From a virus, in the IMG/VR virus record IMGVR_UViG_3300032829_000004, positions 33,803-97,802 of that record: 64,000 nucleotides of DNA; one strand, written 5' to 3'. Shown one piece after another: positions 34,579 to 37,141 of this stretch. The translations under genes were made by a program, and so were the position numbers. The notes under the pieces were generated by a model. It searched no databases and had not been told where the DNA came from. It saw nothing but the letters and a program-made list of their open reading frames with translations. How positions within the stretch are numbered: the stretch's first letter is position 1; the number at the start of each line of letters is the position of its first letter.

Positions 34579-35136
34579 TCACTGACCTGCCTCGAGCCGG
34601 GCGAGCCGGGCGCGCAGCTCGGCGACTTCCTCGGCCGTCCGCTTGCGGTCCTCGGCCTGGCTGTCGGCGATCTCCCGGACGGTTTCCTCGAGCCGGGCCT
34701 GCTTGCCCTCGAACCGCTTGTTGAAGTCCATCTGGAGCACGAAGGCGTGACCGATGGTTTCCAGCGCGGCGCGGACCTGCGGCTCTACGCCGTTGAGGTC
34801 TACGTTGACGGCCTTGGAGTGGCCCCGTGCCAGCGACCGGCCGGCTTTCTTCTGGTGACGGCGGGCAAGCTCGATGTTCGTCCGGGCTTCCACGGGCCGG
34901 TAGCCTTCGCCGCGCACCACGTCGATCGCCCGCTTGTCCTTTTCCTCGTGTTCTTTGGCCGCGCGGATGACAGCCTGCCGGATGGCCATGCGGTGCTTCT
35001 CGGCGTCAAGCCCGAGCGCATCCGCTAGCTGCTGGTAGGTGATGACCGTCCCGGTCGGCGTCTTCCTGATCAGCTCGTAGACGGTCTTCCAGCGTGCTTT
35101 CGCGCCGACCGGCTCGAACGGCTGCCGTTCTCCCAT
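34579..35136 (-). CDS. Basic coiled-coil early protein with HTH-like start
   Basis: 185 residues from an ATG with AAGGGAA upstream. WKTVYELIRKTPTGTVITYQ then QLADALGLDAEKHRMAIRQA looks like a winged helix. RPVEARTNIELARRHQKKAG follows, and the C-terminus is a coil (QARLEETVREIADSQAEDRK). Likely DNA binding. It lies immediately downstream of the first T-arm repeat block. Confidence 0.6.
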   Translation of the reverse strand: MGERQPFEPVGAKARWKTVYELIRKTPTGTVITYQQLADALGLDAEKHRMAIRQAVIRAAKEHEEKDKRAIDVVRGEGYRPVEARTNIELARRHQKKAGRSLARGHSKAVNVDLNGVEPQVRAALETIGHAFVLQMDFNKRFEGKQARLEETVREIADSQAEDRKRTAEEVAELRARLARLEAGQ

Positions 35137-35149
35137 CGCGTTCCCTTTC

Positions 35150-35597
35150 CGTGTTGCTTCCCTGCCTAGCCACGCCTCGCCTTGCCGGGCCGTGCGTCGG
35201 CCCGCGATGCCAAGCCACGTTTGTCCAGCGCGGGCGTGCCGGGAGTCGAACCCGGCCGGAGACCATCCGCCCTGAAAAACCCCTGCCTTGCCCGGCCAGG
35301 ACTCGCCTAGCCGCGCCTCGCCGAGCCCCGCCGGACCCAGCCATGCGCGGGCGTCAGGGACTCGAACCCTGATGTCTGCCGGTCGCCCTTCCCTGCCTTG
35401 CCTGGCCTGGCCCAGCCATGCCGCGCCGCGCGCTGCCATGCCCTGCGGTGTCACGGTTCGTCCCGCGCGGGTGCCGGGGGCTTGAACCCCGGAGCCTGCC
35501 GGCCACCCTTTGAAACCCTTGCCGCGCCAGGCCTGGACAGGCCATGACTAGCCGCGCCCGGTCAGGCCGCGCCTTGCGTTGCCGTGCCAGGACAAGC
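35150..35597 (-). repeat. T-arm hairpin/pentanucleotide array, block 1 (3 units)
   Basis: No protein gene. Three 44-45-nt elements at 35228-35272, 35345-35388 and 35465-35508, spaced 117 and 120 nt apart, lie in pentanucleotide (NGCCN) repeats. On the minus strand each reads: 5-bp outer stem (GGGYG), about 12 nt with a CGGC core, a 5-bp stem, the loop TTCRANN, stem closure, then the outer-stem partner. Stem bases change together between copies. Confidence 0.8.
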
Positions 35598-36170
35598 TCA
35601 GATCTTCTGGACCGTGGCCGTGAACCGGCCGTACCTCGGCCGCCAGTCCCCGATGCCGATGAGCTGCCCGGCCACTTCGGCGATCTGCCGCAGCTCGTCA
35701 AGGTCCATCACGTTCTCGTCGAGAATCCCGTCGGCGGCGGTCTTCCACGTGCGGAAGATCGGGCGGCACCGGGTGACCCGCTGCATGCCGACCTTCGCCG
35801 ATGAGAAGTGCCGGAAGTTCTCGTCGGCCCACAGCGCCTCGGCCTCGCGAGGGCCGGAGTAGGCGATCGGGTTGACGTTGGTGGCGATCAGCACGCCTTC
35901 CTTGACGCGCGGCCCTTTCTTGTGCTTCTTCGCCGCGTCGTACAGGCACCGCCAGATGTTGTCGGCAGGGATGTAGGGGCCGATCTCGGGGTCGTGGTAC
36001 AGGCCGCCGGTCCACTCGACGCGGGCCAGCTGCTCGTAGTCGTCATCGGTCTTGTTCCGCTTGCTGGTCAGCTTCTTGACGGCCTTCGCGGCCGGGTCCA
36101 GCGGGTTGGACAGGCGCGCGTTGTGCATGAGAAGCGCGTCCGTGCCGGTAAGAGTGATCCTGAAGTCCAC
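35598..36170 (-). CDS. Conserved actinophage early protein (LLMHN family)
   Basis: 190 residues from a GTG with a GGAGAACA site. FRITLTGTDALLMHNARLSN, then YIPADNIWRCLYDAAKKHKK, NVNPIAYSGPREAEALWADE and IGIGDWRPRYGRFTATV, text shared by a well-conserved family in Mycobacterium, Gordonia and Streptomyces phages. The fold is unknown to me; conserved His/Asn and Arg residues suggest a nucleic-acid function. It sits alone between the two T-arm repeat blocks. Confidence 0.75.
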   Translation of the reverse strand: MDFRITLTGTDALLMHNARLSNPLDPAAKAVKKLTSKRNKTDDDYEQLARVEWTGGLYHDPEIGPYIPADNIWRCLYDAAKKHKKGPRVKEGVLIATNVNPIAYSGPREAEALWADENFRHFSSAKVGMQRVTRCRPIFRTWKTAADGILDENVMDLDELRQIAEVAGQLIGIGDWRPRYGRFTATVQKI

Positions 36171-36790
36171 TGTTCTCCTTTGAGTTGTCCTTGCCTTGCC
36201 TAGCCCCGCCACGCCCAGCGAAGCCGGGCCTAGCACAGCCATGCCATGTCTTGCGTGACCGCCGGGGGCTCGAACCCCAGTGCCTGCCAGTCGGCCGTAA
36301 AACTCCCTGCCTCGCCGCGCCCAGCCGAGCGCTGCCGGGACCAGCACTGCCGTGCCATGCCCAACCAGGCGCGGGTGCCAGGGTCTCGAACCCTGGTGAC
36401 TGCCGGTCACCCTTCATAAAGCCCCTGCCTCGCCTTGCCGCGCCTTGCCCGGACAGGCCTCGCGTTGCCGAGCCTCGCGGGGCCATGCCGCGCCTCGCCG
36501 CGCCATGCCTTGCCGCGCTCCGCCATGCCCAGCCGTGCCAAGCGCGGGTGCCCCGGACCCGAACCGGGGTGTATGCCGTTCACCCTGTGAAACCCCTGCC
36601 TCGCCAAGACCCGCCGTGCATCGCCTCGCCACGCCAGGCATTGCCCGGCCTTGCGTGCGGGCCGGGGGCCTGAACCCCGGTGCATGCCGTTCCCGCGTGA
36701 ATCCCTTGCCCTGCCTAGCCCGGCCCCGCGTTGCCACGCCTAGCCGTAGCCAAGACACGCCCCGCCCCGCCTAGCCATGCGCGTCCGATG
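36171..36790 (-). repeat. T-arm hairpin/pentanucleotide array, block 2 (4 units)
   Basis: Four further elements at 36253-36296, 36369-36412, 36542-36585 and 36655-36696. The linker 36426-36540 is about 23 consecutive NGCCN pentamers. Outer stems vary as GGCCG/CGGTC, GGGTG/CACCC (twice) and GCGGG/CCCGC with pairing kept. Translating any frame gives ARxGx-type peptides that I regard as by-products. Confidence 0.8.
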
Positions 36791-36872
36791 ATGCCACAAC
36801 ACTGTGGCATGGTCAATCCGGCCATAATGTTGTGGCATGATGCTACACTGGTGTTGGCCACATGCGTGTGGC
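36791..36872 (+). promoter_or_regulatory. Promoter and three TGTGGCA operators
   Basis: ATGCCACA-N4-TGTGGCAT (36791-36810), a single TGTGGCAT (36831-36838) and GCCACA-TGCG-TGTGGC (36857-36872) surround a TACACT -10-like hexamer at 36844-36849. The layout suits repression by the HTH protein encoded just downstream. Confidence 0.6.
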
Positions 36873-36901
36873 AACATGACCGCGTGGACCCGGAGCCGGA
36901 G

Positions 36902-37141
36902 ATGACCGAACTGCTTGACGCCGTTGCCGACGTGCGCGCCCAGTCGCAGCGCGTCGCCCGGCTCGCCGCCGCCCTCTACGAGGCCAGCAAGACGCACAAG
37001 CAGAACGAACTGGTCCGCAAGACCGGCCTCACCCGCGAGACGATCCGGCGGCACGTCGAGGACGAGAAGATCCGGCGCGGCGAGATCGCCCCCACGGCGC
37101 GGTACCTGGCAGCCCAGAAGCGGGCGCGCGGCGACTCCTGA
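36902..37141 (+). CDS. HTH regulator (autoregulated, inferred)
   Basis: 79 residues from an ATG with GGAG six bases upstream; a GTG at 36884 is possible. A helix (VADVRAQSQRVARLAAALYE) precedes HKQNELVRKTGLTRETIRRH, a clear helix-turn-helix, and a basic end. It is the only rightward gene in 26.3-46.6 kb. Its upstream operators suggest it represses itself and perhaps the T-arm array or leftward gene. Confidence 0.7.
   Translation: MTELLDAVADVRAQSQRVARLAAALYEASKTHKQNELVRKTGLTRETIRRHVEDEKIRRGEIAPTARYLAAQKRARGDS

Follow-up and report, generated by a model that had tools for sequence, protein, structure and literature searches.

The Vipr gene, its pentamer tracts and the seven minihelices

The window, i.e. 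the whole 64,000-nt stretch of viral DNA analysed here, carries on its minus strand, at positions 35137-36775, a VIPR-like locus, in which a Vipr protein gene and GGYNN-type pentamer arrays are both present. The gene (35598..36170; 190 aa, GTG start, phrog_4652) encodes a RAMP/Csm3-like protein, which matches the PDB entry 36pp_D ("SUSP1 Vipr protein") with an E-value of 1.3e-34, and whose AlphaFold model (pLDDT 97) shows Foldseek likeness to Csm3. The spacers on both sides of the gene are strict period-5 (GGCNN) tracts: GGC pairs at a spacing of 5 number 63, versus 5 in the control, and no (GGCNN) tracts were found elsewhere in the window.

Seven minus-strand hairpins had been proposed in the sequence-only reading, and all seven were located on that strand; minihelices 1-6 belong to class I and minihelix 7 to class II. 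In the direction of transcription, the guide-like segments delimited by period-5 tract analysis begin at 36697..36775, ahead of minihelix 1 (36657..36696). These are followed by segment 36586..36656 (8/8 GGC in one phase), minihelix 2 (36546..36585), segment 36413..36545 (19/20 GGC in one phase), minihelix 3 (36373..36412), segment 36297..36372, minihelix 4 (36257..36296) and segment 36171..36256, which runs to the Vipr start codon and ends in the RBS AAAGGAG. Past the Vipr gene come segment 35509..35597, minihelix 5 (35469..35508), segment 35389..35468, minihelix 6 (35349..35388), segment 35273..35348, minihelix 7 (35232..35272) and a last segment (35137..35231), which reaches the next gene. 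As the spacers are (GGCNN) tracts flanking the Vipr gene, the hairpins of the window separate putative VIPR guide segments, and not several early genes, as their earlier placement between early transcripts would have it.

The gene after the second array (34579-35136) has a weak match to the alkylguanine methyltransferase DNA-binding domain (below the Pfam cut-off) and to phrog_5926. At the head of the leftward transcript an operator-like inverted repeat (36788-36841) was noted upstream of the plus-strand ORF 36731-37141.

The class I copies were detected with R1, a covariance model trained on 81 diverse copies, six window copies among them, which also recovers many copies outside its training set. 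R1 found six copies in the entire 97.8-kb record, with scores of 56-65 bits (56.3, 59.4, 60.4, 60.2, 56.0 and 65.1 for minihelices 1 to 6, respectively) and E-values of 1e-12 to 1e-15, and no further ones. Minihelix 7 lies under the R1 threshold and was identified by a structural scan. Minihelix 6 has blastn matches in 130 phage records.

The VIPR loci of Escherichia phages SUSP1 and SUSP2 resemble the window in that the gene for a Vipr protein (PDB 36pp) is surrounded by GGYNN pentamer tracts. However, the SUSP2 tracts are separated by simple hairpins and not by tRNA-elbow minihelices. Since VIPR was already known, at least to the PDB depositors, the window locus is a new VIPR member with an unusual separator. 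A Vipr homologue was found at 87/125 tract loci versus 8/202 tract-free loci, the tract loci having been partly chosen for their tracts. The minihelix serves as the separator in about a dozen of 93 Vipr loci, and the locus of Gordonia phage MakoManhole uses class II copies. In the window the pentamer register begins at the minihelix 3' end; a general locking of the pentamer phase to the minihelix fits the window but fails at other loci. Exact-match target scans for two putative (GGCNN) guides gave no matches.

Structure and covariation of the element

The folding energy of the minihelices is unremarkable (z about 0.3 to -1.5); the case for them rests on covariation. The 40-nt element is numbered as an outer stem (A1-5), a linker (L1-11), a T-stem (T1-6), a 7-nt loop and the return strands. 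In class I, an 11-nt linker joins the outer stem of 5 bp to a 6-bp stem capped by a T-loop. The T-loop proposed earlier is indeed present, but the T-stem has 6 bp instead of 5, as the base following the T-stem is paired with the final base of the linker, and the suggested loop consensus TTCRANN does not hold for copies 1 and 2, in which position 5 is G, not A. The linker, previously described by its core only, is in fact structured. L2 and L8 form a pair, for which all four Watson-Crick combinations occur, and L9 and L10 pair with T-loop bases 7 and 6, respectively. The linker is thus a miniature D-loop, with one covarying closing pair and pairing with the T-loop. L2:L8 is A-T in minihelices 1 and 2, and L9:loop7 is G-C in minihelices 1 and 4, A-T in minihelix 2 and T-A in minihelix 3. 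At what is apparently one locus, judged by its flanks, L9:loop7 appears as T-A, T-G, C-G and A-T in related Streptomyces phages. In one cyanophage copy the mini-D-stem is apparently lengthened to about 4 bp.

The covariation claimed from the seven copies is far above the controls in the larger, 81-sequence alignment underlying the covariance model. Pairing is kept in 99.5% of 1,134 cells, and double changes occur at 12/14 pairs. The covariation score reaches 0.856, compared with 0.182 +/- 0.013 for shuffled alignments and at most 0.148 for slid structures. The linker tertiary pairs alone score 0.810 versus 0.165. Selection bias was checked on the first pattern scan, which fixed only the linker core and the T-loop: all five outer and four free T-stem pairs were formed in 138/159 unique matches, and these 138 structured matches had L9:loop7 paired in 138/138 cases, L2:L8 in 136/138 and a 3' R-C in 137/138.

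In tRNA, G18-G19 of the D-loop touch U55-C56 of the T-loop. The linker GG occupies the place of G18-G19, and a variant class combines a linker AG with G at T-loop position 2. All four linker/loop combinations were scanned in IMG/VR, and among 295 structured copies the 18:55 identities were G/U in 224 and A/G in 69, with 2 exceptions; the 18:55-type contact of the elbow therefore covaries. The 19:56 pair (G and C) is constant, but its conservation is no independent test, as the searches required it.

The first pair is G:C in about 90% of copies, and R-C directly follows 262/263 five-pair stems, a flank that resembles tRNA N73-C74. The second class has the linker ATGGTCGNAG, the loop TTCGACT and, in most cases, a 6+6 bp stack (35232-35272 in the window; loci L130, L006 and L102). 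Its window representative, minihelix 7, has the linker GATGGTCTCCG, the same loop and one extra A ahead of the outer stem. The coaxial stack measures 11 bp in class I and 12 bp in class II, compared with 12 bp in tRNA.

The covariation gives strong support to the view that these hairpins are an RNA structure under selection that imitates the acceptor/T-arm half of tRNA. The mimicry goes even further than had been claimed, as the linker provides a D-loop nucleus and restores the tRNA elbow. The element keeps an acceptor-like stem, the T-arm and the D-loop/T-loop elbow, while dropping the D-stem and the anticodon arm. With its elbow built from a single base pair plus a 2-bp pseudoknot, the 40-nt RNA is possibly the smallest natural elbow described.

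Known RNA families and distribution in phages

ARAGORN detected no tRNA in the window, nor in most element-bearing phages. The element itself was rejected as a tRNA, since it has no complete cloverleaf with an anticodon arm. Both the tRNA-Arg annotated in Streptomyces phage Endor2 and a tRNA-Ala called by ARAGORN are false calls spanning an element (located at L137 22379-22461 and L014 6613-6706). Rfam searches at gathering and permissive thresholds, tmRNA included, gave no family for the element and no matches in the window. The only above-threshold match was GOLLD, elsewhere, in Rope, phiScoe45 and Endor2; the GOLLD RNA of Mycobacterium phage Rope (L010 25830-26290) scored 180.6 bits.

tRNA-like structures at transcript ends are also known from plant mitochondrial t-elements and mitochondrial tRNA punctuation; t-elements, however, are organellar and adopt nearly full tRNA folds, whereas the element is a 40-nt phage repeat. 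The tmRNA tRNA-like domain and the TYMV tRNA-like structure have an elbow without a normal D-arm or anticodon arm, but they are far larger RNAs with CCA ends, and an identity of this type finds no Rfam or ARAGORN match. The TYMV elbow is treated in PMC4810234. The best sub-threshold Rfam match was mascRNA/menRNA (RF01684; 15.7-21.1 bits versus a threshold of 42.5), likewise a tRNA-like hairpin inside a longer transcript, which is processed by RNase P and RNase Z (PMC4919922, where the t-element is also mentioned). It differs from the element by an extra hairpin arm, its eukaryotic origin and its single copy per transcript. Model RNase P substrates share the acceptor stem, T-stem and T-loop as their only parts (PMC11143913), but are synthetic and have neither the D-loop nucleus nor the elbow contacts. 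In the open-access literature, a coverage outside which many subscription papers and preprints lie, we found no previous description from phages. The RNA family appears to be new, while tRNA mimicry and RNase P processing are of known kinds.

The element is a widespread RNA family, which many phages from soil and sea carry in the gaps between their early genes. Among cultured phages of Streptomyces and Mycobacterium, well over 100 have it, as do many IMG/VR contigs, AT-rich ones included. One blastn query matched 148 phage records (Streptomyces 113, Mycobacterium 24, Microbacterium 7, cyanophages 4), and another added Gordonia phages. Clustered copies were also present in three bacterial assemblies. 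An Actinocatenispora contig (L134, 6639-9816 of its record) has 12 copies, and the AT-rich contig L094 has elements between its genes and also encodes an AntA antirepressor and an AAA protein.

In annotated phages the copies are intergenic and in sense orientation. Between 13.2 and 21.0 kb of the Rope segment analysed, one copy lies in every same-strand gap of at least 60 nt, and a less complete form of this pattern was seen in Konstantine, Nanodon and phiHau3. Among 295 unique copies, 261 start no more than 60 nt past the end of a same-strand ORF (median 8; the typical distance from the stop codon is 7-8 nt), and 243 have an RBS start downstream (median 42), both associations far exceeding the antisense and random controls. 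Downstream of many elements lies a second hairpin (mean z -1.7 versus -0.1 in the control). A -10-like hexamer lies 11-20 nt upstream in only about 10% of copies. A promoter immediately upstream of every element was therefore rejected, and a few copies may simply sit in 5' leaders.

Sense-orientation hairpins in intergenic gaps could be taken for transcription terminators or antiterminators. This is improbable, since the longest downstream U-run within 50 nt is 1-3 in 290/295 copies and termination needs no elbow, although a put-like antiterminator is still conceivable. Readthrough signals have a short spacer between the stop codon and a pseudoknotted RNA, and the 7-8 nt spacer recalls them. 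A translational role at the stop codon, in readthrough, frameshifting or reinitiation, is nevertheless very improbable: the downstream starts show no preference among the three frames (74/74/71), the stop codons ahead of the elements are mixed in type, and the VIPR segments are non-coding. Finally, many integrases use T-arm sequence, some tRNA/att matches were seen, and the small early genes are mosaic, which would suit a DNA-level recombination or attachment module. We consider such a module least probable of all, as the compensatory changes keep pairing rather than sequence, and the annotated-phage copies keep the sense orientation.

Proposed processing punctuation and its rivals

Based on our observations, we suggest that the element is a miniature tRNA mimic, most likely acting in cis as processing punctuation, a reading to which we assign a probability of roughly 0.55. 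Once a long phage RNA has been made, the elbow would be recognised by host tRNA-processing enzymes, which would cleave next to the outer stem (RNase P on its 5' side and possibly RNase Z on its 3' side). Between genes, this would convert a polycistronic mRNA into separate messages, each next one starting with the second hairpin ahead of the ribosome site. In the window, cutting would free the (GGCNN) segments of the VIPR array, presumed to act as guides, for the Csm3-like Vipr protein.

Punctuation is the best supported of the roles considered, because the element occurs in two unrelated contexts, between cistrons and between guide segments, and bears features recognised by RNase P and RNase Z. 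Both enzymes read the tRNA elbow (PMC4810234). RNase P cuts hairpins that consist of nothing but an acceptor stem, a T-stem and a T-loop, and its substrates also include some phage RNAs and mRNAs (PMC11143913). The element has the corresponding features, i.e. an acceptor/T coaxial stack with a T-loop, G+1 and R73-C74. On the other hand, CCA is not encoded, the base past R-C is mostly not C, the class I stack is 1 bp shorter than that of tRNA, and at other VIPR loci its place is taken by simple hairpins or by short separators.

The main rival, which we regard as unlikely, is a folded handle or cap that stays uncut on the guide RNA or mRNA, where it would protect against exonucleases or be bound by a protein, e.g. 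Vipr. The compact, very stable fold, the second hairpin and the pentamer register beginning at the minihelix 3' end in the window would agree with it. However, a generic hairpin would protect as well, yet the tRNA elbow and the R-C flank are retained, and most carrier phages show no GGCNN tract in view, so that Vipr cannot be the general reader.

Of the other roles in the sequence-only reading, which had listed punctuation beside decoy, Ro binding and recombination, the last three found no positive evidence and leave the fixed sense-strand place between cistrons unexplained. A decoy titrating tRNA-processing or tRNA-targeting enzymes, of the host or of a defence system, would account for several copies per genome, the elbow mimicry and the tandem copies in the window. 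It is improbable, as outside VIPR arrays there is usually one sense copy per gap at a fixed distance from the stop codon, and the A18/G55 variant has no U55, so that a pseudouridine-55 enzyme is not the shared target.

Punctuation leads to a broader and more tentative proposal, that phages of several bacterial groups share a minimal elbow RNA recruiting host RNase P and/or RNase Z, with polycistronic mRNAs and VIPR guide arrays as the predicted targets. Such an RNA would be a natural counterpart to engineered tRNA-guide arrays. A large number of cultured phages carry repeats of the element, either unannotated or miscalled as tRNAs. Cutting by host tRNA enzymes, if it occurs, would explain both the splitting of compact phage operons and the maturation of VIPR guide arrays, with phages of Streptomyces and M. 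smegmatis as a test system already at hand, and the element would also be a very small processing part for RNA engineering.
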